40,994 bases of DNA from an uncultured SAR86 cluster bacterium (GTDB lineage: Bacteria > Pseudomonadota > Gammaproteobacteria > Magnimaribacterales > D2472): positions 1-40,994 of the forward strand of contig CABYNW010000004.1 in assembly GCA_902520495.1 (NCBI GenBank), written 5' to 3'. Position numbers and translations under genes: made by a program. Below the pieces are notes generated by a model. It saw only the letters and a program-made list of their open reading frames with translations, was not told where the DNA came from and ran no database searches. Each line of letters begins with the position of its first letter. Position 1 is the stretch's first letter. Shown one piece after another: positions 17,772-36,215 of this stretch.

Positions 17772-20042
17772 ATGAATATATTTCACGCTGAGAAGGTGCA
17801 TAATGCTGTTGTTAAAACTACAAAAGCAACTGCTATTGCTTCTGCTGTTTTAGTAAGTGCTAATACCATAGCTCAAGAAGATCTAATGATCGAAGAAGTT
17901 ATAGTTAGCGCTCAAAAGAAATCAGAAAACCTTCAAAATGTACCAATTAGTGTTACAACATTATCTTCTGATGAGCTAGATGCACTAAATATTAAAGATT
18001 TTGCGGATTACGTTCTTCAACTGCCAGCAGCATCTGCAGTGCAAAGAAGACCTGGTCAGGGCCAGATTTTTATGAGAGGTGTTTCTGATGGAGGCAACTC
18101 TAACCAATCACTTCAAGGCCCGGCTGTAGCTATTTATTTAGATGAATCACCAGTTACTATGATTGGTGATAACCTTGATGTTCATGTTTATGACATAGAA
18201 AGAGTTGAGTCATTAACAGGCCCGCAAGGAACTTTATATGGTGCTGCTTCTCAAGCTGGTAATTTAAAAATTATTACAAAAAAACCTTCCAATGAATTTG
18301 ATGCTGGATACAACCTAAGCGCAGAATCAACAAGAGGTGGAGATGGAAGCACAATGGTTGAAGGGTTTGTAAATATTCCTTTATCTGAAAATGCTGCATT
18401 AAGGTTTGTCGGTTTCAATGACAGAGACGGAGGTTTTATTGACGCGGTTAATGATTCTATTACATATCCGGTTAGTGGAATTACAAAATCTAATGAGGTT
18501 TTTGTTGAAGATAATTTTAACGATGCGGTAAAAGATGGATATCGAGCTGCATTGAGAGTTGATTTAAGTGAGAATTGGAACCTAGATGTAAATATGATGG
18601 GTCAAGAGACTTCAACTAATGGTGTATGGGACCATAATCCTGATGAATTAGGTGAATACAACGTTAGCAGATTCTATGATGATAAATCACACGATGAGTG
18701 GACAAGATTTTCTGCAACCTTGACAGGTGATTTAGGATTTGCTGATTTAACTTTTACAACATCTAGTCTTGAAAGAGATTTTGAAGTATTAAGCGATTAT
18801 TCTCATTATGCAATTGATGGTTACGTAGAAGGTTATTACACATGCTATACATACTATTTTGGACCATGTGTTGATCCCAGTATCCAGTTTGAGAATGATA
18901 CTCACCAAGAATATGACACAACAGAAATTAGATTATCATCAAAAGTTGGTGATAAATTTAATTGGATAATCGGTGCTTTTCAAACTGAAAATATTACTGA
19001 ATATGATTCACAATGGCATGTTCCAGCAATTAACCCTGCTGCAGCAGTTCCAGGTTCTGCAGATCTTTATTATCAAACAGATCAGGTAAGAAGCGAAGAT
19101 GAATCAGCAGTATTTGGAGAGATATATTATCAAGTAAATGACAAGATAGAACTCACTTTAGGTCATAGAAAATTTGATAATGAAACAACTTTAAAAGGAT
19201 TTGTAGGGACAGTATGGTGGCCAAATTATATTTTAGGCAGCGCTACAAGACCAGATAATGTTAATTCTGTCTACGATGGAAGCGATAGCATTTCTAAATT
19301 TAATCTATCGTATCAAATAGATAATAATTCTATGATCTATATAACACAATCAGAGGGTTACAGGCCTGGCGGAGCAAATAGAACTACTCAGCTTGGAGCT
19401 ACATATGATGCTGACTTCTTAACTAGTACTGAGTTTGGCTTTAAATCAATCTCAATGGATGGCAGGCTAAGATTGAACGGCGCTATGTATCAAATGGATT
19501 GGGATGATATCCAATTAGGCTGGTTTGATTCTTCTATCTCTTTATTAGGATTAGTAGACAATATAGGTAAAGCTAATAGTAATGGTTTTGAACTAGATGC
19601 TAAGTACATACTAAGCGATACAACCACTGTATCTTTTGGATATGCAAATAATGAAGCAAAACTTAAAGAAGACTATGTTTTAAGAGGTGTTGTAGAAGCA
19701 CAAGATGGTCAAGATCTTCCTTTCACTCCTGATACAAAATATAACGTAACTGTTAATGTGGACACTTCAGATAGGTCTAATATTCAGTTTAACTATGTTT
19801 TTGTTGATGAAATGTGGAATGATTTATTCTATACCGATAGAGAAATGCAAGACTCTTATGGTATTGCAAATCTTTCATTTACAACAATGGTTGGAGAAAG
19901 TGGCTCAGTTCAGATATATATGGATAATATTTTTGATGAAGTTGCTCAACTTTATATAAACAGTGAAGATATTCAAAAATTAACTACTGTGAATAGACCA
20001 ACAACTATTGGCGTAAAATATAGTTGGAAACTTAAGCAATAG
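17772..20042 (+). CDS. TonB-dependent receptor 1
   Basis: A 756-residue outer-membrane receptor. AGGGGA at 17761-17766 is a good ribosome site for the ATG at 17772. The N-terminal export region is about 35 residues, ending SANTIAQ|ED. A TonB-box-like IEEVIVSAQKK follows (41-51), then a plug with RPGQGQIFMRG and the family motif GPQGTLYGAASQAGNLKIIT (about 154-173), and a 22-strand-type barrel. A loop carries a likely disulfide (CYTYYFGPC). The C-terminus reads YSWKLKQ rather than ending in an aromatic residue, which is unusual. Ligand unknown. It is clearly paralogous to receptor 2 at 25259. A strong terminator follows, then TPR-sulfotransferase 1. Confidence 0.94.
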   Translation: MNIFHAEKVHNAVVKTTKATAIASAVLVSANTIAQEDLMIEEVIVSAQKKSENLQNVPISVTTLSSDELDALNIKDFADYVLQLPAASAVQRRPGQGQIFMRGVSDGGNSNQSLQGPAVAIYLDESPVTMIGDNLDVHVYDIERVESLTGPQGTLYGAASQAGNLKIITKKPSNEFDAGYNLSAESTRGGDGSTMVEGFVNIPLSENAALRFVGFNDRDGGFIDAVNDSITYPVSGITKSNEVFVEDNFNDAVKDGYRAALRVDLSENWNLDVNMMGQETSTNGVWDHNPDELGEYNVSRFYDDKSHDEWTRFSATLTGDLGFADLTFTTSSLERDFEVLSDYSHYAIDGYVEGYYTCYTYYFGPCVDPSIQFENDTHQEYDTTEIRLSSKVGDKFNWIIGAFQTENITEYDSQWHVPAINPAAAVPGSADLYYQTDQVRSEDESAVFGEIYYQVNDKIELTLGHRKFDNETTLKGFVGTVWWPNYILGSATRPDNVNSVYDGSDSISKFNLSYQIDNNSMIYITQSEGYRPGGANRTTQLGATYDADFLTSTEFGFKSISMDGRLRLNGAMYQMDWDDIQLGWFDSSISLLGLVDNIGKANSNGFELDAKYILSDTTTVSFGYANNEAKLKEDYVLRGVVEAQDGQDLPFTPDTKYNVTVNVDTSDRSNIQFNYVFVDEMWNDLFYTDREMQDSYGIANLSFTTMVGESGSVQIYMDNIFDEVAQLYINSEDIQKLTTVNRPTTIGVKYSWKLKQ

Positions 20043-20058
20043 TTTTAAAGAACCATAT

Positions 20059-20089
20059 AAAAGGCTGTATCATTGATACGGCCTTTTTT
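20059..20089 (+). terminator. Intrinsic terminator after TonB receptor 1
   Basis: AAAAGGCTGTATC (20059-20071), loop ATT, GATACGGCCTTTT (20075-20087) with one G-U pair and a run of six T. The 13-bp stem is strong. The next gene starts 12 bases later at a TTG preceded by TATATA at 20089-20094. Confidence 0.93.
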
Positions 20090-20101
20090 ATATAAAGACA
20101 A

Positions 20102-21688
20102 TTGAAGACATATAGTAAAGAAAATATACCAGATCAACTCATTGAGGCAGCAAAGTTGATATCAGAAGATAAGCTTAAAAAAGCTGAACCAATACTAAGA
20201 GATTATTTAAAAGATGATCCTATGGATGTTAATGCTATGAAGCTATTAGCTGATATAGGCATTAAATTTAGAGCATACAAAGATGCTGGATACTTGCTTA
20301 CAAGAGCATTAGACCTCTCACCTGATTATGATCAAGCAAGGCTTAGTTATGCAAATTTACTTTACAAAAGACAATTACCGTTTGAGGCATTAGAACAAAT
20401 AAATATTTTATTAAAAAAAGAACCTAGTAATATTCAATATTTAACACTTAAAGCTGTTAATTTAGCTTTAGCAAATCAACATGATGATGCTTTAAGCATC
20501 TTTGAAATTATTATCAAAGATAAAAAAGTAAAAAATAATCAACTTCATTTAAGTTATGGTCATACTCTAAGAGCTGTTGGCAGAATTGATGAAGCTATTC
20601 AGTCATACAAAAATTCAATTTCTACTAAAACTGGATATGGTGAAGCATATTGGGGTTTAGCAAATCTTAAAACTTTTGATTTTAATCAAGATGATATAAA
20701 TGAAATCAAGAATTTATTGAATAACAAAGACTGCAAGATCGATGATTATTACCATTTGCTATTTGCACTCGGGAAGGCTGAAGAGGATAGACAGAATTTC
20801 GAAGGATCTATGGCTGCATATTCAAAAGGCAATCACGTTAAAAGCAAACAAGTTCCATGGAATTCCAAAGGGTTTAGTGATGAATGTGATGAACTTATAA
20901 AATTCTTTGATGAGTCTTTAATCAAGAAATATAAAGAAGTAGGTGATAAAAATTCTGATCCCATATTTGTTGTTGGTTTACCAAGATCTGGTTCAACATT
21001 GATAGAACAAATTCTTTCTTCTCATTCACTTGTAGAAGGAACAACAGAACTTCAAAATATAATAGCTTTATCAAGAAAGATAGCTAATAAAAAAAACGCA
21101 AATAGTAAGTCTGAATATCCATCAGCAATATTAAATATGAAAACTTCTGAATTTAAAAAAATGGGCGCAGCTTATATAAAAAATACATTAGATCAAAGAG
21201 TAACTGATAAGCCTTACTTTATAGATAAGATGCCAAATAATTTTGTTCACATTGGACTTATTCATTTAATACTCCCCAACGCCAAAATAATTGATGCAAG
21301 AAGAAATCCTATGGATTGTTGTTTTAGTTGTTATAAACAATTGTTTGGATCTGGGCAAGGCTTTACATACTCACAAAATAGAATTGGAAATTATTATCTT
21401 GATTACTTAAAAATAATGAATCATTGGGACAAAGTGCTTCCAAAAAAAGTTCACCGAGTTATGTATGAGGATATGGTTAAAAATACTGAATTTGAAATAA
21501 AAAAACTACTTGAATACTGTGAATTAGATTTTGAAGAAAGTTGTTTAAATTTTTATAAAACTAAAAGAACAGTAAGAACTCCAAGTTCAGAACAAGTTAG
21601 ACAACCCATATATAAGAAAGGAATTGGACAATGGGAATATTTTGACAAATGGTTAGATCCACTTAAAGAATCATTAAGAATGGAGTAA
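20102..21688 (+). CDS. TPR-repeat sulfotransferase 1
   Basis: A 528-residue protein with N-terminal TPR helices (about 10-270; for example AEPILRDYLKDDPMDVNAMK and the GHTLRAVGRIDEAIQSYK repeat) and a C-terminal sulfotransferase domain resembling tyrosylprotein sulfotransferases. The PAPS 5'-phosphosulfate loop is VGLPRSGST (291-299), and the 3'-phosphate site RRNPMDCCFS (400-409) keeps Arg, Pro, Asp and Ser. The motif YFIDKMPNN lies between them at 372-380. It probably transfers sulfate from PAPS to a protein or glycan bound by the TPR part; no signal peptide is seen. TTG is the only start near the terminator; it sits seven bases after TATATA with no Shine-Dalgarno sequence. Its close paralogue is at 28579-30531. 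Confidence 0.88.
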   Translation: MKTYSKENIPDQLIEAAKLISEDKLKKAEPILRDYLKDDPMDVNAMKLLADIGIKFRAYKDAGYLLTRALDLSPDYDQARLSYANLLYKRQLPFEALEQINILLKKEPSNIQYLTLKAVNLALANQHDDALSIFEIIIKDKKVKNNQLHLSYGHTLRAVGRIDEAIQSYKNSISTKTGYGEAYWGLANLKTFDFNQDDINEIKNLLNNKDCKIDDYYHLLFALGKAEEDRQNFEGSMAAYSKGNHVKSKQVPWNSKGFSDECDELIKFFDESLIKKYKEVGDKNSDPIFVVGLPRSGSTLIEQILSSHSLVEGTTELQNIIALSRKIANKKNANSKSEYPSAILNMKTSEFKKMGAAYIKNTLDQRVTDKPYFIDKMPNNFVHIGLIHLILPNAKIIDARRNPMDCCFSCYKQLFGSGQGFTYSQNRIGNYYLDYLKIMNHWDKVLPKKVHRVMYEDMVKNTEFEIKKLLEYCELDFEESCLNFYKTKRTVRTPSSEQVRQPIYKKGIGQWEYFDKWLDPLKESLRME

Positions 21689-23369: not shown

Positions 23370-23519
23370 ATGCTTTACCAACTTGGAATAATATTAATTT
23401 TTATTGTTGCTGCTTTAATTATCTCAAAGAGGTTTAAAAATAATGAAAATAAAGATCTTGTATATGAAGATGAAATGGATAAAGACGAATTAGAAAAAAT
23501 TGATGATGAGCTAGATTAA
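23370..23519 (+). CDS. Small membrane protein with acidic tail (49 aa)
   Basis: A 49-codon gene starting MLYQLGIILIFIVAALIISK: one N-terminal membrane helix (about 3-19), a basic patch KRFKNNENK, then a strongly acidic tail (EDEMDKDELEKIDDELD). Positive-inside predicts N-out, C-in, with the acidic tail in the cytoplasm. I do not recognise a family. Support comes from the -10 hexamer six bases upstream, sensible amphipathic composition, and an end that interlocks with BCCT 2: both stops are TAA sharing TTAA (23516-23519). Otherwise 23315-23515 would be a gene-free gap. Function unknown; it may be a small regulator or membrane tether. Confidence 0.7.
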   Translation: MLYQLGIILIFIVAALIISKRFKNNENKDLVYEDEMDKDELEKIDDELD

Positions 23520-25006
23520 TTTTTTAATTCACCTTCAAGAGACTTATAAAAGTGTCTACAAGCGAATACAACAATAATTGAAAAAGGTACCCCTAAAATA
23601 ACAACAGAGGTTTGAAGCGCTGTTAACCCACCGGCGAATAAAAGCACACCAGCTAAAATACCTAACAATATTGCCCATGTAATTCTAGATATAATTGGAG
23701 AATCGTCATTGATACTGGTTTGACTTTTAGATGAAAGCATTGAGGCAACCAGGGCTCCGGAGTCAGATGATGTAACAAAGAAAGTAACTATAAGAATTAA
23801 TGAAAATATTGATGCTATTTTAGAAATAGGATAAACATCAAAAAGTGCGAATAATGCAACAGTGTAATTATTATTTACAACATCGTTAATCTGACTTGTT
23901 TCATTAATAACTTGAAAAATAGCTGCGTTACCAAAGATTCCCATCCACAAAAAAACTATAAGTGATGGAACAAATAATACTCCAATAATAAATTCTTTAA
24001 TTGTTCTCCCAAACGATATTCTTGCTATAAACAGTGATACAAAGGGAGCCCATGCAAACCACCAAGTGTAAAAAAATAATGTCCAACCATTTTGCCATGA
24101 TGAGGATTGATAAACCTCAGTCCATGTAGCGGACTCTATGAGATTATTTATATAGGATCCAAAATTCTGTATAAGGGCATTTAATATAAATACTGTTGGA
24201 CCAAATACAAAGATAAAGACCATAAGAGTAGTTGCTAATATCATATTTACTTGAGATAGTTTTTTTATTCCAGAATCAAGTCCAAGACAAACACTTATAA
24301 GTCCTATTAGTGTGATTATAGTAATTATTATGATTTGATTTAAAAAGGATTCATTGATTCCAAAAACATGACTTAGTCCAGAACTTATTTGAACCGTACC
24401 CAGTCCCAAAGATGTTGTAACACCAAATACTGTAGTCAAAATTGCAATAATATCGATTAATATTGCTAACGGCTTATTATTTGCAATTTTTGATCCTAAC
24501 AATGAGCTAACTCGGAAAGGAAGTTTTTTATTATACGAAGCAAAAGCAAAACATAATCCAAGTGATGAATAGATTGCCCATCCATGAAGCCCCCAATGGA
24601 GATTTGCTAGACCTATAGCTTTTCCAGCATTGTATGAAATGTCATTATCTGTCATTCCTGGATAAGAATTCAAATGCATTATTGGTTCTGCAACACCATA
24701 AAAAAGAAGACCAATACCTAGACCCGCACTAAATAACATCGCTATCCAGTTAACATAAGAGTAGGTTGGTTTGGCATCTGGTCCACCAAGCCTAATATCT
24801 TTATATTTTGTGAAAATTAAAAATATTGAGAATATTACAAACCCATTAGCTAGTATGATAATCATCCAGCCTAAATATTTAGATAAAAAAGTTTGTAAGT
24901 CTAAAAAAAAGTATTCAGAAATATCAGAATTTAATGAGACCATTGCGGTAATAAGTGATATCAATAATACCGATATGAGAAATCTTGGTTTGCTAATATT
25001 ATGCAT
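23516..25006 (-). CDS. BCCT family transporter 2 (betaine/choline/carnitine/DMSP type)
   Basis: A 496-residue inner-membrane carrier, about 12 helices, with canonical features. TM3 is SAGLGIGLLFYGVAEPIMH (93-111), TM4 is HWGLHGWAIY (137-146) with W138 and W143, and TM8 is GWTLFFYTWWFAWAPF (307-322), keeping the aromatic box W315, W316 and W319. The loop FIARISFGRTIKEF follows. The GIG sequence in TM3 is seen in sodium-coupled members. Likely substrates are glycine betaine, choline or DMSP; sequence alone does not decide. It is divergent from TonB receptor 2 across a 252-base region holding the structured leader. It lacks a long C-terminal osmosensor tail such as in BetP. Confidence 0.94.
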   Translation of the reverse strand: MHNISKPRFLISVLLISLITAMVSLNSDISEYFFLDLQTFLSKYLGWMIIILANGFVIFSIFLIFTKYKDIRLGGPDAKPTYSYVNWIAMLFSAGLGIGLLFYGVAEPIMHLNSYPGMTDNDISYNAGKAIGLANLHWGLHGWAIYSSLGLCFAFASYNKKLPFRVSSLLGSKIANNKPLAILIDIIAILTTVFGVTTSLGLGTVQISSGLSHVFGINESFLNQIIIITIITLIGLISVCLGLDSGIKKLSQVNMILATTLMVFIFVFGPTVFILNALIQNFGSYINNLIESATWTEVYQSSSWQNGWTLFFYTWWFAWAPFVSLFIARISFGRTIKEFIIGVLFVPSLIVFLWMGIFGNAAIFQVINETSQINDVVNNNYTVALFALFDVYPISKIASIFSLILIVTFFVTSSDSGALVASMLSSKSQTSINDDSPIISRITWAILLGILAGVLLFAGGLTALQTSVVILGVPFSIIVVFACRHFYKSLEGELKN

Positions 25007-25104: not shown

Positions 25105-25132
25105 TTGCATCATTATTTTAAGATGTTATGAT
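25105..25132 (+). promoter_or_regulatory. Sigma70-like promoter of TonB receptor 2
   Basis: TTGCAT at 25105-25110 and TATGAT at 25127-25132 with a 16-base spacer. Transcription should start near 25139, giving a leader of about 120 bases before the ATG at 25259. Confidence 0.55.
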
Positions 25133-25138
25133 TGTTGC

Positions 25139-25258
25139 AAGACCGATTTAAAGAAATTGCTGGTCTATAAATATGGCTAAACTTCCATAGGGGGAATACT
25201 TCTGGGATACCAGGCTGGTTTATTTTGCAATTTATATTAACTAACTATGAGGACTCAT
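25139..25258 (+). promoter_or_regulatory. Structured 5' leader of TonB receptor 2 (candidate cis-regulatory RNA)
   Basis: This leader is more G-rich than its surroundings and holds several hairpins. First, AGACCGATTT (25140-25149) pairs with AAATT (25154-25158) and GGTCT (25162-25166) around a 3-base bulge. Second, TTCC (25183-25186) pairs with GGAA (25192-25195). Third, CTGG (25202-25205) pairs with CCAG (25210-25213) around GATA. Two copies of the self-complementary TTGCAA (25135-25140 and 25225-25230) frame it. It ends in GAGGA (25249-25253), the ribosome site. It does not match the conserved boxes of cobalamin, TPP or FMN riboswitches that I know. Ligand or regulator unknown. Confidence 0.5.
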
Positions 25259-27688
25259 ATGTTTAATTTTATTAATACAAAAGAACAATTAAATAAAATA
25301 ACAAATAAGCTTTCTTTAGGTGTTTTAGGTGCTGTTGCTGCAATGGCTCCTCAAACTGCTGAATCACAAGAAAGACAAATTGAAGAAGTTGTTGTTTCTG
25401 CAACAAAGAAGGATGAAAGTGCTTCTAAAGTTGCTGTAACAGTTACTGCTTTAACAGAAGAAACACTAAAAGAAATGAACGTTTCAAATTTTGATGAATA
25501 TGTTCAATTCTTACCAAATGTTTCATCAGGTGGTAGAGGACCTGGACAATCAACAATCTATATAAGAGGTATGGCTGTCGATCCAGTTAATGTTTTTCTA
25601 TCAGCTGCTCAAGGTTCTTCGCCAAACGTAGCTCTGTATTTAGATGAGCAACCACTTCAGGTTCCTGGAAGGAATTTAGATGTATACGTTGCAGATATGG
25701 AGAGAATCGAAGTATTGCCTGGACCACAAGGAACACTTTATGGTGCTAGTTCGCAAGCTGGTACTGTGCGAATGATTACTAATAAGCCTAAATATAATGA
25801 ACAAGAGGGCGGTTTCAATATGTCGCATTATGCAACAGCTCATGGTGACCCAAGTTATTCATATGATGCGTTTTTAAACGTTCCTATGATTAATGATGTT
25901 TGGTCTATCAGAGGTGTTTTCTATAAATCTGAACAAGGTGGTTATATTGATAACGTTCCTGGAACATGGTCTGGTGCAGGAAGAGGAAGCTTCCCTGCAG
26001 CTGGAGCAGCAATGTTTGTTACTGAAGATAATTCAACTTTAGTTGAAGATAACTTCAATGATGCATCATATGAAGGTTTCAGACTTTCATCTGCTTCTTC
26101 GATTGGCGATGATTGGGAAATGTTAATAACTCATATGAGTCAAGATATTAGTGCTGATGGTGTATTTGACTATGACCCAGAAAAAGGTGATCTAAATGTA
26201 AGCAGGTTCGTACCTGATACATTAGATGATTCATTTACTCAAACATCTCTAACATTAGAAGGAAGAATGGGTAAACTTGATGCTTTATACACTGGAGCAT
26301 ATTTAGAGAGAGAATCTGAACAACAGGTTGACTATAGTGGTTATGCAAATGTTGGAGCTTGGTTACCATATTATGTTTGTAACTACACCGCTTATAACCT
26401 TTGTGGACCTGCTACAGTTTCTGTTGAGTTATTAGATGATAACCAAAGAACAACTCATGAATTTAGAGTATCCAGTAATGAAGAGAGTGATTTACCATTC
26501 TCATATACAGCTGGTGTATTTATTGATGAAAGTATCTTAGAAACAGAGAATGATTATTGTTACTTAGGAACAGATCATCCATATGCATCTGCAGGTACTT
26601 GGGCTGCATATCAGGCTAATAATCCATTACCTGGTGCTTGGTCTAGAGAAGGCAGAGTCAGAAGACCTGCTTGTAGATTCTTCAATGATCTTAAGAGAAC
26701 TGAAGAGCAAACAGCATATTTTGCTGAAATGACTTTCCCGGTTAGCGATAAGTTAGATCTTATTGTTGGTGCTAGAAAGTATGACCTAGATGTTGACTAC
26801 ACAGGTCAATCAAAATTTGGCTATAGAGGTTCAAATGTTGCAAATGGAAGAGATTATGATGTGTCTGGTGATCATAGCGCTGATCCATTAAACATGAACG
26901 ATACAATTACAAAAATCTCAGCTAAATATACTGTTGATGATGACACAATGTGGTATTTCACAAGATCTGAAGGCTACAGACCTGCAGGATTTAATAGGGG
27001 TGGTGGACTTGCTTCAAGGAATGCATCATTACCAAATGTTCTTCTAACATATGGCACAGATGATACTACCAACACAGAGGTTGGGGTTAAAACTGTAATG
27101 CTGGATGGAACATTAAGACTTAATGCATCATATTACATGATCGATTGGACAGATGTTCAAGTATCTCAATTTGATCCGGTCAATGTTGGATTATTAACAT
27201 TTATTGAAAATGCTGCTGACGCAGAAATAAGTGGTATGGAAGCTGATATCCTTTGGTATCCAAGTGATAATGTAACTGTTGCAAGTGCTGTTTCTTATAA
27301 TGACACTGAAGTTACTGCTGATAAATCTAGAATTATCCAAATATCAAATGTTGGAAGTCAGATGCCTTTATCACCAAAACTTCAATACAACATTAGAGTT
27401 AAGGTTGATTCAGAGTTAGCTGGTAATCCTGCATATACGCAAGTTGCTGTTAAAAGCTCTGATAAAGCATACAGCTCACTTGAAACTGCAAAACGTCTAG
27501 AGCAACCATCGTATACTATATGGGATGCTGCATACGGAGTAAGCATTAATGGAACTGATGTAGAGTTCTTTATCAGAAACATTACTGATGAAAGAGCAAA
27601 CTTCTATTATAACGATCAGGATGATATTCCAAGAATTACAACCAATAGACCTAGAAATATTGGTGTTAGAATATCTTATAAATTCTAA
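25259..27688 (+). CDS. TonB-dependent receptor 2
   Basis: An outer-membrane receptor of 809 residues from the ATG at 25259, which has GAGGA six bases upstream. The ATG at 25247 would overlap that ribosome site. The export region ends near PQTAESQ|ER, followed by the TonB-box-like IEEVVVSATKK. The plug contains GPGQSTIYIRG and GPQGTLYGASSQAGTVRMIT; the barrel ends in aromatic VRISYKF. A probable loop disulfide (CNYTAYNLC) lines up with the CYTYYFGPC loop of receptor 1, and the two share plug motifs, so they are paralogues. Receptor 2 is longer, with inserts such as the 560-600 region. It has a long structured leader and ends at a strong terminator. Ligand unknown. Confidence 0.94.
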   Translation: MFNFINTKEQLNKITNKLSLGVLGAVAAMAPQTAESQERQIEEVVVSATKKDESASKVAVTVTALTEETLKEMNVSNFDEYVQFLPNVSSGGRGPGQSTIYIRGMAVDPVNVFLSAAQGSSPNVALYLDEQPLQVPGRNLDVYVADMERIEVLPGPQGTLYGASSQAGTVRMITNKPKYNEQEGGFNMSHYATAHGDPSYSYDAFLNVPMINDVWSIRGVFYKSEQGGYIDNVPGTWSGAGRGSFPAAGAAMFVTEDNSTLVEDNFNDASYEGFRLSSASSIGDDWEMLITHMSQDISADGVFDYDPEKGDLNVSRFVPDTLDDSFTQTSLTLEGRMGKLDALYTGAYLERESEQQVDYSGYANVGAWLPYYVCNYTAYNLCGPATVSVELLDDNQRTTHEFRVSSNEESDLPFSYTAGVFIDESILETENDYCYLGTDHPYASAGTWAAYQANNPLPGAWSREGRVRRPACRFFNDLKRTEEQTAYFAEMTFPVSDKLDLIVGARKYDLDVDYTGQSKFGYRGSNVANGRDYDVSGDHSADPLNMNDTITKISAKYTVDDDTMWYFTRSEGYRPAGFNRGGGLASRNASLPNVLLTYGTDDTTNTEVGVKTVMLDGTLRLNASYYMIDWTDVQVSQFDPVNVGLLTFIENAADAEISGMEADILWYPSDNVTVASAVSYNDTEVTADKSRIIQISNVGSQMPLSPKLQYNIRVKVDSELAGNPAYTQVAVKSSDKAYSSLETAKRLEQPSYTIWDAAYGVSINGTDVEFFIRNITDERANFYYNDQDDIPRITTNRPRNIGVRISYKF

Positions 27689-27704
27689 TCTGAGATAGTA
27701 TTTT

Positions 27705-27736
27705 AAAAAGGCCAGTTTTTTAACTGGCCTTTTTTT
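27705..27736 (+). terminator. Intrinsic terminator after TonB receptor 2
   Basis: AAAAAGGCCAGTT (27705-27717), loop TTTT, AACTGGCCTTTTT (27722-27734) and further T to 27736: a perfect 13-bp stem with a T run. The A-rich 5' arm also lets it act weakly on the opposite strand. Confidence 0.95.
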
Positions 27737-27752
27737 AATTAATAATAAAAAA

Positions 27753-27781
27753 TTGAAATCTAATAATTTAGATATTATTAT
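27753..27781 (+). promoter_or_regulatory. Promoter of the MORN-repeat gene, leaderless type
   Basis: TTGAAA at 27753-27758, a 17-base spacer and TATTAT at 27776-27781, then six A residues and the ATG at 27788. This is the best -35/-10 pair in the window, and its expected start point coincides with the start codon. Confidence 0.65.
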
Positions 27782-27787
27782 AAAAAA

Positions 27788-28453
27788 ATGAAATTAAAAA
27801 TATTCTTCATATTATGTTTAAATTTTTTAATAATTGAGGTTGAGTCACAATGGTTTAATAGTGACAAACCTTTATTTGAAAAGTATCAAAATTCAGCAGT
27901 GCCATCAAGAACTCTAGTTGAGAGACAGGGTTTAAAATATCAAGTTAATACCAATAAAGCTTTTTCAGGAACATTTTTAACTTTTGAGGATGAATATGGT
28001 TTCTGCGTGACAGAAGCTGGCTCATATAAGAATGGTCTCTTGCATGGTGATTTTGAGGCATACGAAGGATGCGGCACTCTATATTCTTACAAAACTGGAT
28101 ATAAGAATGGTCTTGAACATGGAAAATATACCGAATATATGGATGGTTTATTATATATGGAAGGTTCAAACGTAAACGGTGTGAATGAGGGTGAATGGAC
28201 TGGATATGAAAATGGTCTTATATCTTGGACTGAAAATGTCAACAATGGTGAAACTGTAAACTATACAGAATTCTTATATCACGACAATGGTCAATTATCT
28301 TTAAAGGAAATATATAATAGCGATGAAGTATTGCATGGTATTTCAGAGGCATATCATCAAAACGGTCAATTAAAATCAAAAATTGAATACAAAGATGGAG
28401 CTGTTTTTAAGATAATTGAAAAATATGATTTTAACGGCAACCCCATAAATTAA
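27788..28453 (+). CDS. Secreted MORN_2-type repeat protein
   Basis: A 221-residue protein with a signal peptide (MKLKIFFILCLNFLIIEVES|Q). The rest is made of MORN_2-like units of about 20-25 residues, with cores such as YKNGLLHGDFEAYEG, YKNGLEHGKYTEYMDG, NVNGVNEGEWTGYENG, YHDNGQLSLKEIYN and YHQNGQLKSKIEYKDG. These repeats form beta-hairpin stacks. In bacteria they are often exported and of unknown role. Two Cys (C73, C95) may form a disulfide. It lies between TonB receptor 2 and TPR-sulfotransferase 2, so it may be the substrate or partner of either; receptor 1 and sulfotransferase 1 have no such gene between them. Start is fixed by the promoter six bases upstream. Confidence 0.82.
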   Translation: MKLKIFFILCLNFLIIEVESQWFNSDKPLFEKYQNSAVPSRTLVERQGLKYQVNTNKAFSGTFLTFEDEYGFCVTEAGSYKNGLLHGDFEAYEGCGTLYSYKTGYKNGLEHGKYTEYMDGLLYMEGSNVNGVNEGEWTGYENGLISWTENVNNGETVNYTEFLYHDNGQLSLKEIYNSDEVLHGISEAYHQNGQLKSKIEYKDGAVFKIIEKYDFNGNPIN

Positions 28454-28530
28454 TATTTTGAATAAATGTCCTTTTCAAAGAATTTATCAATTTAATACCA
28501 CATAAATTTTACTAATGAAATTAAATATTT

Positions 28531-28567
28531 TTGGGCATGACGTCATAAAAATAATACTATCTATGAT
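28531..28567 (+). promoter_or_regulatory. Promoter region with palindromic operator ATGACGTCAT before TPR-sulfotransferase 2
   Basis: A perfect 10-bp palindrome ATGACGTCAT lies at 28537-28546. It sits between a TTGGGC (28531-28536) and a TACTAT (28555-28560), an 18-base spacer, where a bound protein would block or bend the promoter. A second hexamer TATGAT lies at 28562-28567. The start codon is 28579, so the leader would be at most about a dozen bases. Confidence 0.4.
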
Positions 28568-28578
28568 TAGCTTCAATT

Positions 28579-30531
28579 ATGCAAAGTACAGAATCAACTA
28601 AAATTATTGAAAATTCAATCAAGAATAAAGATTTTAAAAATGCGTTATCTTTATGCATAGAACATTCACAATCATTAAACAAAAAGGATTTTTATTATTT
28701 AACATCGGTATGTTATAGATATCTAAAAGAGCCAAAAAAAGCTTTAGTTAATTTAGATAAATTAATACAAATTAATCCAACTTACGGAAGAGCCTATCAG
28801 GAAATTGGACATACTAATATTCTTTTAAAAGAAAAAAATAAAGCTCTAAAGGCTTATTTAAGAGCTGTTAGACATAATCCATCACTTCAGTCATCTTGGT
28901 TAGGAATACTTGCATTAGAAAACAAAAATGAAGAATTAATAAAATTTGTTGAACAAAATGTTATATATCTTAAAGATCTCGCACCAGAACTTAAAACAGT
29001 AATTAGTTTTACTCATGAAGGAAAACTTTCAAGAGCTGATCGTATTTGCAGAGAATACTTAAGAGATCATCCGCATGATATTGAGGCTATGAGATTATTA
29101 GCTAATATTGGAAGAGACCTAAATATATACGAAGATGCTGAGTTCCTTCTTGAGAGCGCATTATTATTTGATCCAGATAATCCAAAAATTAAATATGACT
29201 ATATTAATATTCTTACAAAAAGGCAGAAGTATGGTGAAGCATTAAAATATGCACAGGAATTTTATAACGAAGATCCAAAAAATATTAATGCAATGAAGTT
29301 GTTATCAACGGCATTGTTTAGAACTGATAGATATAAAGAAGCCATACATATCTATAATGAAATTCTAAAGCTAGAACCTAATAATACAGATGTTATGTTG
29401 TCTATGGGTCACTTATATAAGACATCTGGTGAAATTGAGAAATCAATAAGTTCATACAAAAAAGCATATAAAACTGATAAGTACTTTGGTGATTCATATT
29501 GGAGTTTAGCTAATCTTAAAACCTATAAATTTTCTGAATCTGAAGTCAAGTCCCTAGATGAGATGGTTGATGATGTATATGTTTCAGAGGATGAGAGATC
29601 TTTTATGCATTTTGCGCTTGGAAAAGCATATGAAGATCTCAATGAATATGAGAAATCATTTAACCACTATAAAGAGGGTAATTTAATTAGAAAAAGTAAA
29701 TCATTATTTAACGTAAATGATTTTAATAAAGAATGTTTAAATCAAATAGAGGTATGTACTGATGATTTATTTAATATGAAATCTGAATGGGGGTCAGAAT
29801 CAAGTGCGCCAATATTTATCCTGGGCCTACCTCGAGTTGGATCAACACTTATTGAACAAATTCTTTCATCTCACTCTTTGGTAGAGCCAACACATGAACT
29901 GCCTAATATTATTTCAACTGCACTAAGGCTAAATGAAAGAAAATCACAGGATATAAAATCAAGATATCCTGATATTTTGTTAAGTTTGTCTGAGCCACAA
30001 TTGAAGCTAATAGGAGATAAGTATATCAATGATAGCGATGTCTTTAGAACAGATAAGCCATACTTTATAGATAAGATGCCAAATAATTTCAGACATATTG
30101 GCTTGATAAAACTTATTCTACCTAATGCAAAAATAATTGATATTAGACGATCTTCGATGTCTGCATGTTTTTCTTGTTACAAACAATTATTTGCTGAGGG
30201 TCAGGAATTTACCTATGATCTAAAAGATTTAGCTGGATACTATAATAATTACGTTGAATTGATGGATCATTGGAATAAGGTTTTACCAAACCAAATTTTA
30301 TCTATTAATTATGAAGATGTAGTCAATGATTTTGAAAATTCAGTTAATCAAATATTAGATTATTGTAATTTAAACTTTGAAAAAGAGTGCCTAGAATTCT
30401 ATAAATCAAAAAGATCAGTTAAAACCCCTAGTGCAGAACAAGTAAGACAACCAATATACAAAACTGGAATGGATTATTGGAAAAATTACGAACCTTATTT
30501 AGATGATTTAAAAAATAATTTAAAATATTAA
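28579..30531 (+). CDS. TPR-repeat sulfotransferase 2 with altered PAPS motifs
   Basis: A 650-residue paralogue of the protein at 20102, with a longer TPR region (about 5-370; for example ALVNLDKLIQINPTYGRAYQ and AIHIYNEILKLEPNNTDVML) and the same C-terminal sulfotransferase fold. The two share long stretches such as YFIDKMPNN, LILPNAKIID and SAEQVRQPIYK. The 5' loop reads LGLPRVGST (415-423), with Val where sulfotransferases usually have Ser. The 3'-phosphate region reads RRSSMSACFS (523-532): the Pro and Asp of the paralogue are both replaced by Ser. PAPS binding may be weakened or the donor may differ. No signal peptide and no Shine-Dalgarno sequence. It follows the MORN gene by 125 bases with its own promoter-like region. 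Confidence 0.88.
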   Translation: MQSTESTKIIENSIKNKDFKNALSLCIEHSQSLNKKDFYYLTSVCYRYLKEPKKALVNLDKLIQINPTYGRAYQEIGHTNILLKEKNKALKAYLRAVRHNPSLQSSWLGILALENKNEELIKFVEQNVIYLKDLAPELKTVISFTHEGKLSRADRICREYLRDHPHDIEAMRLLANIGRDLNIYEDAEFLLESALLFDPDNPKIKYDYINILTKRQKYGEALKYAQEFYNEDPKNINAMKLLSTALFRTDRYKEAIHIYNEILKLEPNNTDVMLSMGHLYKTSGEIEKSISSYKKAYKTDKYFGDSYWSLANLKTYKFSESEVKSLDEMVDDVYVSEDERSFMHFALGKAYEDLNEYEKSFNHYKEGNLIRKSKSLFNVNDFNKECLNQIEVCTDDLFNMKSEWGSESSAPIFILGLPRVGSTLIEQILSSHSLVEPTHELPNIISTALRLNERKSQDIKSRYPDILLSLSEPQLKLIGDKYINDSDVFRTDKPYFIDKMPNNFRHIGLIKLILPNAKIIDIRRSSMSACFSCYKQLFAEGQEFTYDLKDLAGYYNNYVELMDHWNKVLPNQILSINYEDVVNDFENSVNQILDYCNLNFEKECLEFYKSKRSVKTPSAEQVRQPIYKTGMDYWKNYEPYLDDLKNNLKY

Positions 30532-31327: not shown

Positions 31328-33007
31328 ATGAAATATTATTTTCTAATTTTATCTATTTTTATAACATCTTATATTTCAGGATATGATCGTATAACAGGTC
31401 TTGATTTTGCAAGCAGATCTGAAGTTCTAGCTTCAAATGGAATGGCTGCAACAAGTCATCCTTTAGCAACTCAAACAGCAGTATCTATTCTTAAAAACGG
31501 TGGAAATGCTATAGATGCAGCAATTGCAGCCAATGCTGTGCTTGGGTTAGTTGAGCCTACTGGTTGTGGTATAGGTGGTGATCTATTTGCAATTATATGG
31601 AGCTCGGACAAAAAAAAATTATATGGATTAAATTCGTCTGGCCCAGCACCAATGAAATTATCCATAGACGAAATAACTAAAAAGGGTTTAGACAAAATAC
31701 CTGCATATGGTCCGTTACCTGTAACAGTTCCTGGAGCAGTAGCTGGCTGGACAGAACTTCATAAAAAATTTGGATTAATGGAATTTAATCTGTTATTCAA
31801 AGATGCTATCAATTATGCAGAAAAAGGTTTCCCTGTATCGGAAGTTGTTGCATATTATTTAGGACTTTCATCAAATAATTTTAAAAATTATCCCAACTTT
31901 AAAGAAACCTGGATGCCTGATAATAAAATTCTTAAGAAAGGCGATATTTTTAAAAACCCTCATTTAGCTAATACATATAAAAAAATTGCTCAGTCTTATG
32001 GCTCAGAATTTTATCAAGGAGACATAGCAAATGAAATCGTAAGCTTTATCAATAGCCAGGGGGGATATTTTACTATTGAAGATTTAAAGAATTTTAAACC
32101 TGAATGGATAGAACCTGTTTCAGTAAACTACAGAGGATATGATGTTTGGGAACTTCCTCCAAATGGTCAAGGTATAGCTGCATTGCAAATGCTTAATATT
32201 TTAGAAAATTTTGATATTAAAAAATTAGGTTTTGGAACGTCTGAATATATTCATCTTTTTGCTGAAACAAAAAAAATTGTATATGAAGATAGGGCTCTTT
32301 ATTATGCCGATCCCAATTTTTCTGACATTCCTGTATCAAAATTAATATCAAAAGAATATGCTAAGAACAGATTAAACTTGATTGATCCTAATAAATCATC
32401 AATAAAATTTGATGCTGGTAACTTAGAGAATGGGGATACAATTTACTTAACTGTTGCTGATCAATTTGGAAATATGGTCTCACTAATACAAAGTAACTAT
32501 AGAGGCATGGGTTCTGGCATGGTCCCAAATAAACTGGGCTTTATGTTACAGGACAGAGGTGAAATGTTTAGTTTGGACAGAAACCATAAAAATTCTCTTT
32601 TGGGAGGAAAACGACCATTTCATACAATAATTCCTGCTTTTATTTCAAAAGATGGCAATCCTTTAGTAAGTTTTGGCTTGATGGGTGGGGCGATGCAACC
32701 TCAAGGACATGCACAAATAGTCATAAATCTAATAGATTTTAAAATGAATCTTCAGGAAGCTGGTGATGCACCACGAATTAGGCATATTGGTTCATCTCAA
32801 CCTACTGGTGAAAAAATGATTGATGGAGGATACCTAAGTCTTGAAAAAGGTATACCTTCTGAAGAGATAAATAAATTAAAAAAACTTGGTCATAAGATTC
32901 AGTATGATTTAGGTGGTTTTGGTGGTTATCAAGCAATTATGATTAAAGATGGCGTATATATTGGCGCATCAGATAGCAGAAAAGATGGCCAAGCTTCAGG
33001 GTATTAA
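31328..33007 (+). CDS. Gamma-glutamyltransferase-like N-terminal-nucleophile hydrolase
   Basis: A 559-residue exported enzyme of the gamma-glutamyltranspeptidase fold, which self-cleaves into large and small subunits and hydrolyses or transfers gamma-glutamyl groups (or acts as an acylase). It has a signal peptide (MKYYFLILSIFITSYISG). The large subunit has SHPLATQTAVSILKNGGNA (43-61), EPTGCGIGGDLFA (76-88) and VPGAVAGW. Cleavage should occur before Thr371 in NGDTIYLTVADQ, making Thr371 the nucleophile, and SNYRGMGSGM lines the site after it. The GDT-x-Y-L form resembles the YwrD/acylase-like branch rather than E. coli Ggt. It probably acts in the periplasm on glutathione or other gamma-glutamyl compounds. 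The aminotransferase gene starts 30 bases after it. Confidence 0.92.
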   Translation: MKYYFLILSIFITSYISGYDRITGLDFASRSEVLASNGMAATSHPLATQTAVSILKNGGNAIDAAIAANAVLGLVEPTGCGIGGDLFAIIWSSDKKKLYGLNSSGPAPMKLSIDEITKKGLDKIPAYGPLPVTVPGAVAGWTELHKKFGLMEFNLLFKDAINYAEKGFPVSEVVAYYLGLSSNNFKNYPNFKETWMPDNKILKKGDIFKNPHLANTYKKIAQSYGSEFYQGDIANEIVSFINSQGGYFTIEDLKNFKPEWIEPVSVNYRGYDVWELPPNGQGIAALQMLNILENFDIKKLGFGTSEYIHLFAETKKIVYEDRALYYADPNFSDIPVSKLISKEYAKNRLNLIDPNKSSIKFDAGNLENGDTIYLTVADQFGNMVSLIQSNYRGMGSGMVPNKLGFMLQDRGEMFSLDRNHKNSLLGGKRPFHTIIPAFISKDGNPLVSFGLMGGAMQPQGHAQIVINLIDFKMNLQEAGDAPRIRHIGSSQPTGEKMIDGGYLSLEKGIPSEEINKLKKLGHKIQYDLGGFGGYQAIMIKDGVYIGASDSRKDGQASGY

Positions 33008-34923: not shown

Positions 34924-36075
34924 ATGAGCAAATTAAACGATTTTGGCTTTGGTACTCAAATAAGAAAAGGTCCATTTTTTGATGCTACCGTCAGATGGGG
35001 AGCAAAAGGATTTTCTGTTTATAATCATATGTATATACCAAGAGATTTTGGTGATCCAGAGCAGAATTTTTGGAATTTAATTAATAATGCAATTCTTTGT
35101 GATGTAGCCGTAGAAAGACAAGTTCAAATAAAAGGCCCTGACGCTAGTAAATTTGTTCAGATGATGTCTCCAAGGGACTTATCTAATATGCAAGTTGGCC
35201 AATGTAAGTACGTTATTCTTACAAATCAATTTGGTGGAATCTTAAATGACCCAGTTCTATTAAAGGTATCAGAGGATTGTTATTGGTTTTCACTAGCTGA
35301 TAGTGATATTTTATTTTGGGCTCAAGGCTTGGCTGTTAATAATTTATATGATGTAGCCATAACTGAGCCAGACGTTTCACCTATTCAATTACAAGGACCT
35401 AAATCCAAAGAAATTATGGTAAAGATATTTGGTAATGAAATTCTAGATATCAAATATTATTGGTTCAAAAAGTTTAATTTAAATGGTATTGATTTAATTA
35501 TTTCTCGAACGGGCTGGTCAAGTGAATTTGGGTATGAGATTTTTTTATTAAATTTTGAAGACGGAGATGAACTTTACGAAACATTAATGCAATCTGGAAA
35601 AGGCCTAGGCCTTCATCCAGGTCATACTTCAACTATAAGAAGAATAGAGGGTGCTATGCTTTCATATCATTCAGATATGGATATAAATACTAATCCATTT
35701 GAATTAGGTATGGATAAATTCATTGATCTAGATAAAGGTTTTGATTTTATTGGTAAAAATGCTTTATTGAAAATTAAAAAAAAAGGTATTACAAGAAAAC
35801 AAGTTGGAATAATTCTCCATAATAATCCAATGGAAGGACCAAATACAAGACACTGGGATATAAAAAAAGAAGATAAATATATAGGCAAAGTAACCTCAGC
35901 AGTATATTCACCTAGATTAAAACAAAATATTGGCTTAGCTCTTGTAAATATAAATTATTCTAATATCGGTTCAAGATTCAGCGTTTGCATGGATAGTAGC
36001 CCTGTTGAGGCAGAGGTAGTTGAAAAACCTTTTTATGATCCAAATAAATTAATTGCAAAAAATTCGAGTAGTTAA
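34924..36075 (+). CDS. GcvT/DmdA-family folate-dependent demethylase
   Basis: A 383-residue member of the aminomethyltransferase fold that passes a methyl or methylene group to tetrahydrofolate. Instead of the GcvT-type DLSHMG motif it has VYNHMYIPRDF (32-42), CDVAVERQVQIKG (59-71), SPRDLSNMQVGQCKYV (82-97), NDPVLLK and LADSD (124-128), and later EPDVSPIQLQGPKS and SRTGWSSEFGYEIF. From memory these closely match the DMSP demethylase DmdA of marine bacteria, which makes methylmercaptopropionate. GcvT homologues are easily confused with DmdA, so the substrate might instead be another methylated amine or sulfonium. Two BCCT carriers in the window could import such substrates. The gene is monocistronic and leaderless by its promoter. 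Confidence 0.8.
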   Translation: MSKLNDFGFGTQIRKGPFFDATVRWGAKGFSVYNHMYIPRDFGDPEQNFWNLINNAILCDVAVERQVQIKGPDASKFVQMMSPRDLSNMQVGQCKYVILTNQFGGILNDPVLLKVSEDCYWFSLADSDILFWAQGLAVNNLYDVAITEPDVSPIQLQGPKSKEIMVKIFGNEILDIKYYWFKKFNLNGIDLIISRTGWSSEFGYEIFLLNFEDGDELYETLMQSGKGLGLHPGHTSTIRRIEGAMLSYHSDMDINTNPFELGMDKFIDLDKGFDFIGKNALLKIKKKGITRKQVGIILHNNPMEGPNTRHWDIKKEDKYIGKVTSAVYSPRLKQNIGLALVNINYSNIGSRFSVCMDSSPVEAEVVEKPFYDPNKLIAKNSSS

Positions 36076-36123: not shown

Positions 36124-36215
36124 GGAGGGGTGGCAGAGTCTGGTTTATTGTAACGGTCTTGAAAACCGTCGTGCCTTCATCGGCACCGTGGGTTCGAATC
36201 CCACCCCCTCCGCCA
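36124..36215 (+). tRNA. tRNA-Ser (anticodon UGA)
   Basis: A complete class II tRNA. The acceptor stem is GGAGGGG (36124-36130) with CCCCTCC (36205-36211), discriminator G and encoded CCA (36213-36215). The anticodon stem is ACGGT/ACCGT (36153-36157 with 36165-36169) with loop CTTGAAA and anticodon TGA at 36160-36162. A long variable arm GTGCC-TTCATC-GGCAC identifies serine, and the T arm is GTGGG-TTCGAAT-CCCAC. It reads UCA and other UCN codons and is a substrate of the SerS encoded at 2511. The thioesterase ATG is seven bases downstream. Confidence 0.97.

Follow-up and report, generated by a model that had tools for sequence, protein, structure and literature searches.

The closest described relatives of the RNA considered here are the SAM-II riboswitches (RF00521 SAM_alpha, RF01726 SAM-II) and the SAM-V riboswitch (RF01826). 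RNA switches are also found ahead of TonB receptors, in that cobalamin riboswitches occur before those of the btuB type. The ligand site in the SAM-V crystal structure comprises U8-U10, A18, U20, G21, U47, A48 and A50, with U47 and A50 binding SAM, according to the accessible text of that report (PMC6061858).

The window, meaning the whole analysed stretch of 40,994 nucleotides from an uncultured SAR86 cluster bacterium, carries a leader between a divergent BCCT transporter gene and a TonB receptor gene (Table 1). Like SAM-II, this leader has P1, AUUU[GA], a short spacer, [AC]UUGC, P1', an A-rich joint, GCUAAA and pairing by the bases after GCUAAA. SAM-II-like RNAs occur upstream of methionine genes in this bacterial family and, in genus g9, at the locus of the leader itself. 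Unlike SAM-II, it is left unscored by the Rfam models, has AUUUA rather than AUUUG and GAA/UUC as P2a, has a long extension on its 3' side that includes complements of core strands, and precedes a TonB receptor. With SAM-V it has in common the same pocket nucleotides (PMC6061858, accessible text) and a marine, AT-rich host. The strand after GCUAAA in SAM-V is the ribosome site near the start codon, whereas in the leader 25182-25185 is CTTC and the ribosome site lies about 64 bases further on (25249-25253); nor did RF01826 match at the leader among the matches listed. Cobalamin riboswitches, compared through Rfam only, are alike in being RNA switches before a TonB receptor and unlike in RNA and ligand, with no Rfam cobalamin match at the leader.

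The leader is real and conserved; it either belongs, as a divergent form, to a known riboswitch superfamily or is closely related to one, and the genes around it are an unusual setting for such an RNA. It is read as a divergent riboswitch of the SAM-II/SAM-V type, with a probability of roughly four in five, because P1, the pseudoknot strands and the equivalents of the nucleotides that contact SAM in SAM-V are kept in the distinct copies and because a SAM-II-like RNA occupies the same locus in another genus. SAM is its likely ligand. The original prediction is supported in that a TonB receptor gene is preceded by a structured cis-regulatory leader that is conserved. Its further proposal of a new RNA class holds in so far as no Rfam family matches, and fails in that the leader shares its core with the SAM-II/SAM-V superfamily, a SAM-II-like RNA being present at this position in a sister genus. 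Compared by sequence, the leader is not a wholly new class: it resembles SAM-II and SAM-V in the core features open to comparison, although Rfam scores do not place it in either family.

The leader and its promoter

The promoter was described correctly: 25105-25132 holds TTGCAT, a 16-nt spacer and TATGAT (25127-25132), with a TG upstream of the latter. Homologues have TTGCAT as the -35 element, except in genus g8, where it is TTGAAT or TTGATA, and TG[TG]TAT-N-[AG]T as the -10 element (TGGTAT in L057 and L058). A consensus promoter scanner left 25105-25132 unflagged. From the position of the -10 element, the transcript would start at about 25138-25140. GC content rises from 0.14 just upstream to 0.34 in the leader, in keeping with the claim that the leader is G-rich against its surroundings, and the ribosome site GAGGA does form its end. 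The receptor most likely starts at the second ATG (25259), which is preferred because the reading frame start at 25247 is not kept in L024-L028.

The hairpins proposed for the leader fared unevenly, in that AGACC/GGTCT with GATTT/AAATT, and also CTGG-GATA-CCAG, are present, whereas TTCC/GGAA is not conserved. The idea that two TTGCAA repeats frame the leader was ruled out: of the two, the 5' copy (25135-25140) lies across the position where the transcript is predicted to begin and lacks conservation, and only the 3' GCAATTT is kept. Folding energy was dropped as evidence of special structure (z -1.17, with 24 of 200 shuffles equally good), so that energy alone would not mark the leader as special; comparison with homologues does. 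A leader peptide was also rejected. ATGGCTAAACTTCCATAG encodes MAKLP* in the window, and its ATG is missing outside genus g1 and in L039, L049 and L053 (by eye).

Table 1. Positions of the leader elements and of the genes around them.
Feature	Position	Strand	Basis and remarks
Divergent BCCT transporter gene, locus marker	23516-25006	-	in 27 of 28 fetched loci; the 28th is cut off on that side
-35-like hexamer TTGCAT	25105-25110	+	sequence; also in homologues, genus g8 excepted
Extended -10, TGTTATGAT	25124-25132	+	sequence; recurs in homologues with small variation
Putative aptamer core, SAM-II/SAM-V type	25140-25185	+	nt 1-46 (nt i = 25139+i); comparison, models, descriptor
P1 5' strand AGACC	25140-25144	+	pairs with 25162-25166; family members have C-G, U-G or U-A at nt 5-23; two-sided changes at all five pairs in the joint alignment
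UUU, equivalent of SAM-V U8-U10, triplex third strand	25147-25149	+	29/29 copies
GAAATTGC, pseudoknot strand; AUUG = equivalent of SAM-V A18-G21	25153-25160	+	AUUGC kept in 29/29
P1 3' strand GGTCT	25162-25166	+	same basis as the 5' strand
Joining segment ATAAATA, complementary also to most of 25217-25223	25167-25173	+	alignment
GCTAAA; UAAA = equivalent of SAM-V U47-A50	25176-25181	+	29/29 copies
TTC, proposed P2a 3' strand, partner GAA 25153-25155, at SAM-V's ribosome-site position	25183-25185	+	joint alignment
Peripheral hairpin CTGG-GATA-CCAG, variable	25202-25213	+	lost in L059-L062 and L064 (by eye)
3' arm GGTTTAT, complementary to joining segment	25217-25223	+	92.7% of A1 cells paired
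GCAATTT, candidate anti-aptamer strand, complementary to 25154-25160	25227-25233	+	100% of A1 cells paired, with G-U changes in genus g8 among them
Ribosome binding site GAGGA	25249-25253	+	sequence
TonB-dependent receptor behind the leader, group A	25259-27688	+	Pfam Plug, 4.1e-16
gamma-Glutamyltransferase	31328-33007	+	TIGR00066, 403.7 bits (cut-off 357.85)
DmdA-like GcvT-family protein	34924-36075	+	DMSP demethylase model, 372 bits (under the cut-off, 410)

Distribution

The leader was proposed to serve a single receptor, and one copy was found in its own genome. A DNA search of 100 genomes (its own included) found copies in 20 others at E<=2.3e-9, 15 in the same genus and five in other genera, the latter matching in part only. 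A covariance model built from these 21 copies (R1) gave strong matches (E<1e-10) in 30 of 107 genomes of the family, all at one syntenic locus consisting of the BCCT transporter, the RNA and the TonB receptor. A search of the order (203 genomes) recovered the same 30. In a sample of 369 genomes from the class, only two of the 30 were found, together with two weak matches (E 0.04 and 0.10), and no members beyond family f1. An IUPAC pattern run against a collection of 85,000 species returned 28 stretches, 24 titled SAR86 and four titled only as gammaproteobacteria, all of them sequences already found in the family; in viral contigs the pattern had no match.

A TonB receptor lies downstream of all 29 distinct copies, and wherever the locus extends far enough (18 cases) a TPR-sulfotransferase gene follows the receptor. 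Receptor A is accompanied by the RNA in 16 of 16 genomes. At 12 loci of the same genus the BCCT gene is present with a group-B receptor (about 40% identical) and no RNA.

Conservation of the putative aptamer core

The order AUUU[R]-N5-AUUGC-P1'-A-rich joint-GCUAAA is, read from sequence, that of a SAM-II/SAM-V core. Its constant parts are P1 (nt 1-5 with 23-27), U8-U10, A17-U-U-G-C21 and GCUAAA (37-42). The last three are intact in 29 of 29 distinct copies, a count that includes some selection, the copies having been gathered by models that reward the core; the outermost P1 pair is lost in L060 and L061. Mapped by motif, the equivalents of the SAM-V ligand site would be nt 8-10, 17, 19, 20, 39, 40 and 42.

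Conservation is concentrated in the core. In L054, L055, L056 and L060 the core is 0.88-0.93 identical to that of the window and the rest of the leader only 0.49-0.61, and the first 300 bases of the L055 receptor have an identity of 0.50. In the far copies L063 and L067 the core stands at 0.76 and the remaining leader at 0.48 and 0.42. Unpaired core bases are kept no less well than paired ones, which goes beyond what a simple stabiliser hairpin would need.

Detection by Rfam, lineage models and descriptor

The Rfam check that had been called for found no relevant family at the leader, either at gathering thresholds or at E<=10 on 501 and 104 bases. The SAM-II models (RF00521 and RF01726) did not reach their gathering thresholds at the window leader, and eight other leader loci were likewise without a match. 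In 107 genomes RF00521 reported no leader among the matches listed and nothing in G000; at E<=10 it also gave matches in 13 of 14 control genomes. RF01826 (SAM_V) gave no match over its cut-off in the 107 genomes and none in G000, and none of its listed matches lies at a leader. The window's only Rfam match at the gathering threshold is a tRNA-Ser(TGA) gene at 36124-36212.

A second model (R2) was made from 36 SAR86 SAM-II leaders, those before TonB receptors being left out; in three of these the gene downstream is for a desaturase and not for methionine metabolism (L170 by Pfam, L146 and L185 by eye). Within the window, R2 placed the leader top, narrowly (14.2 against 13.7 bits, E 0.088). Over the leader loci it matched at the leader in 24 of 30, including all 17 top matches, with a best E of 0.0031. 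Over the window's own genome the copy ranks 11th (14.2 bits, E 2.4), and over the 107 genomes at E<=0.05 a single leader of the 30 was reported (G034, E 0.041). The reverse test failed, R1 returning none of the SAM-II-like leaders at E<=1. In view of these ranks and of the reverse failure, sequence scoring alone does not prove the window copy.

The features of an H-type pseudoknot core (P1, the UUU third strand, UUGC, GCUAAA and fixed spacing) are present in the leader. A descriptor combining a 5-bp P1, AUUUR, [AC]UUGC and GCUAAA with their spacing matched once in the window (both strands), against no match on one strand of 100 Mb of random sequence with matched dinucleotide composition. It matched 34 of 36 SAR86 SAM-II loci, 25 of 30 leader loci and none of the 12 RNA-less loci; five of the 30 leader loci thus fail it in its strict form.

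SAM-II-like RNAs elsewhere in SAR86

Over the family, RF00521 scores above its cut-off in two of 107 genomes and just below it in many, and R2 has matches at E<=0.05 in 66 of the 107. The weakest of the latter are probably due to chance, since several of that score seem to lie within coding sequence (by eye). Downstream sequences were examined at 48 RF00521 places and at 40 further RF00521 or R2 places, most of which precede methionine genes. The SAM-II-like RNAs (L140-L195, L226-L263) stand before metK, metF, metY, metB, metH and homocysteine methyltransferases. With one representative checked per gene type, metY, metB and metK exceeded the NCBIfam cut-offs, and metF, a partial metH and two homocysteine methyltransferase types were supported by Pfam. 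This suggests that SAR86 places many methionine genes under the control of SAM-II-type RNAs, mostly below the Rfam threshold.

Some of these RNAs have features of their own. P1 seems very short in the metK/metF type. SAM-II-like RNAs also precede fatty-acid desaturases (L170 by Pfam, L146 and L185 by similarity), and L194 lies about 212 bases before an OmpW-family protein. The protein downstream of L140 (genome G107) is a cystathionine gamma-synthase over the NCBIfam cut-off, in family f1; metB is reported missing from two of four SAR86 families in the accessible text of PMC11582366.

The most telling evidence is positional homology. In genus g9 (G110, G116 and G117) the same locus consists of a BCCT gene (52% identical), a SAM-II-like RNA and a group-B receptor, so that the window leader sits where relatives have a SAM-II-like RNA. 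The G110 RNA starts some 116 bases ahead of its receptor. R2 gives it 61.6 bits, Rfam SAM-II 37.5 against a cut-off of 44, and RF00521 35.2 against a cut-off of 36. The G116 RNA scores 57.6 bits with R2 and lies about 298 bases before the receptor, and that of G117 is a degenerate copy (28 bits). In G110 a sulfotransferase-like gene follows the receptor.

Covariation

Covariation appears only once the leaders are aligned with the SAR86 SAM-II RNAs. Within the leader family, where the original prediction had proposed to look for it, a single pair changes on both sides and 92 of 500 shuffles are as good, which is no greater than expected from shuffling; read strictly, the covariation check proposed there thus went against the leader. 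Of the 35 rows of the joint alignment, 16 are leader cores and the other 19 come from the set of 36 SAM-II RNAs; of the 17 left out, nine are metB/metY types with a longer loop and eight were taken as near-duplicates. In it 98.1% of cells are paired, and none of 500 shuffles reaches either this percentage or the covariation score. Seven of nine pairs change on both sides, a number reached by 28 of 500 shuffles. Most of these double changes separate the leaders from the SAM-II RNAs, and therefore represent few events. They include both P2a pairs tested, of which the second is unpaired in five of the 35 rows; the P2a columns are G-C and A-U in the leaders and C-G and C-G in most SAR86 SAM-II rows.

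A model for switching

Two strands 3' of the core are complementary to it, an arm ending in UUUAU to AUAAAyA, and GCAAUUU to AAAUUGC, and forming these two pairings would break the aptamer. In an alignment of 21 of the 30 copies (A1), 97.3% of cells of the whole structure are paired, against at most 44.7% when the strands are slid. The changes are nearly all one-sided, so that complementarity is kept rather than covariation proved.

The following scheme can be proposed. SAM would be bound in a pseudoknot of GAAAUUGC with GCUAAAnUUC, the AUUU providing a third strand. Without SAM, GAAAUUGC and AUAAAyA would instead pair with the downstream GCAAUUU and UUUAU, such that the aptamer is opened and the receptor mRNA can be translated. 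With SAM the 3' strands would be released, and in sister genera they would be able to cover the ribosome site. The expected effect is OFF at high SAM; the receptor would accordingly be made when methionine or SAM is short, and would probably import an organosulfur or methionine-related compound.

Folding predictions bear on the last step to differing degrees. In genera g5 and g8 the released strands are predicted to pair with the ribosome site. When the aptamer is forced in place of the anti-aptamer, predicted ribosome-site accessibility falls by at least 0.25 in 11 of 13 g5/g8 sequences, although for single sequences among those 11 as many as 23% of 60 shuffles reach the same effect. In the window's genus the change is at most 0.15 in 11 of 15 sequences (0.11 in the window), and of the 29 sequences taken together only 17 do better than the average of their shuffled versions. 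Masking of the ribosome site is predicted for the sister genera, most strongly for L057 and L062, and is weak in the genus of the window. A translational OFF mechanism is put forward tentatively, at somewhat less than an even chance.

A slightly more speculative reading, likewise given a little less than an even chance, is that the leaders form a distinct SAR86-specific subclass of SAM-II/SAM-V that is switched by a long-range anti-aptamer strand instead of a ribosome site in P2a, and that would make a nutrient TonB receptor directly responsive to SAM. No such RNA was found in the accessible literature on SAR86 riboswitches, marine TonB receptor RNA motifs, marine SAM-II/SAM-V, SAR86 methionine/TonB and SAM-II with the outer membrane (PMC2704228, PMC7160235 and PMC5343134 among the sources), a body of text that takes in few subscription papers. 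Nor did accessible text that mentions both SAM riboswitches and TonB-dependent receptors link the two.

Alternative explanations

The platform might act on transcription instead, the CTGG/CCAG hairpin and a T-rich tail terminating transcription when the 3' arm is released. This would be a rival for the platform and not for the aptamer. Most SAM-II switches are transcriptional, according to the accessible text of PMC6061858, and the window has one terminator-like site at 25201-25214 where 0.1 is expected in shuffles. The stem is of only five pairs, however, the tail CTGGTTTATT is interrupted, and five homologues have lost the hairpin (L059-L062 and L064, by eye), so attenuation by a SAM-binding RNA seems unlikely.

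That the leader serves only a transporter gene raises the question of whether a SAM-II-derived aptamer has changed its ligand, for instance to S-adenosylhomocysteine, a sulfonium osmolyte or another compound of the methionine cycle. The variant is confined to the receptor locus, it has AUUUA where the SAR86 SAM-II rows have AUUUG, and SAM-I variants that bind spermidine offer a precedent (PMC10853860, accessible text). Yet all 29 copies retain the equivalents of the nucleotides by which SAM-V contacts SAM, and the RNAs with AUUUG at the same locus in G110 and G116 are SAM-II-like, so that a change of ligand is judged improbable. Least probable of all is a protein- or sRNA-binding leader or a 5'-end stabiliser, whose likeness to SAM-II would be due to convergence or to descent after loss of ligand binding. 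P1 does begin where transcription is predicted to start, the RNA is absent in 12 genomes of the genus, and the Rfam models give the leader no score; against this, the unpaired pocket nucleotides are conserved at the same spacing and the sister genus has its SAM-II-like RNA at the same locus.

The receptor and its neighbourhood

All NCBIfam matches of the receptor are below their cut-offs, and these and the PDB matches are mostly siderophore and heme receptors. The gamma-glutamyltransferase and the DmdA-like protein are encoded within about 11 kb downstream of the leader. Should the receptor be under SAM control, a prediction of its substrate class could be put to the test, and if the leaders are indeed a subclass of their own, the receptor would be an outer-membrane port for methionine or organosulfur compounds, which to our knowledge are not an established substrate class of TonB receptors. 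SAR86 genomes give no support for sulfate incorporation, and glutathione and, in some genera, DMSP are the sulfur sources proposed for them in the accessible text of PMC11582366. An organosulfur substrate would fit both the neighbourhood and these sources.

A few further observations concern the loci recovered in the searches. Of fourteen weak R1 matches (E 0.02-0.95), 11 were inspected together with one BLAST match (these 12 being L068-L079), and further membership was rejected: six precede an apparent map gene (label by eye), and the others were judged by eye not to be members. L068-L071, L073 and L074, from genomes of genus g5, have a conserved element of 65-66 bases before the apparent map, which we would guess to be a divergent rpsB leader read on the other strand. 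In L105 and L106 the receptor frame after the RNA ends early (252 and 353 aa), as a pseudogene or through an assembly error. The window itself holds two pairs of a TonB receptor and a TPR-sulfotransferase of similar make-up, at 17772-21688 and 25259-30531, and the leader stands at the second only.
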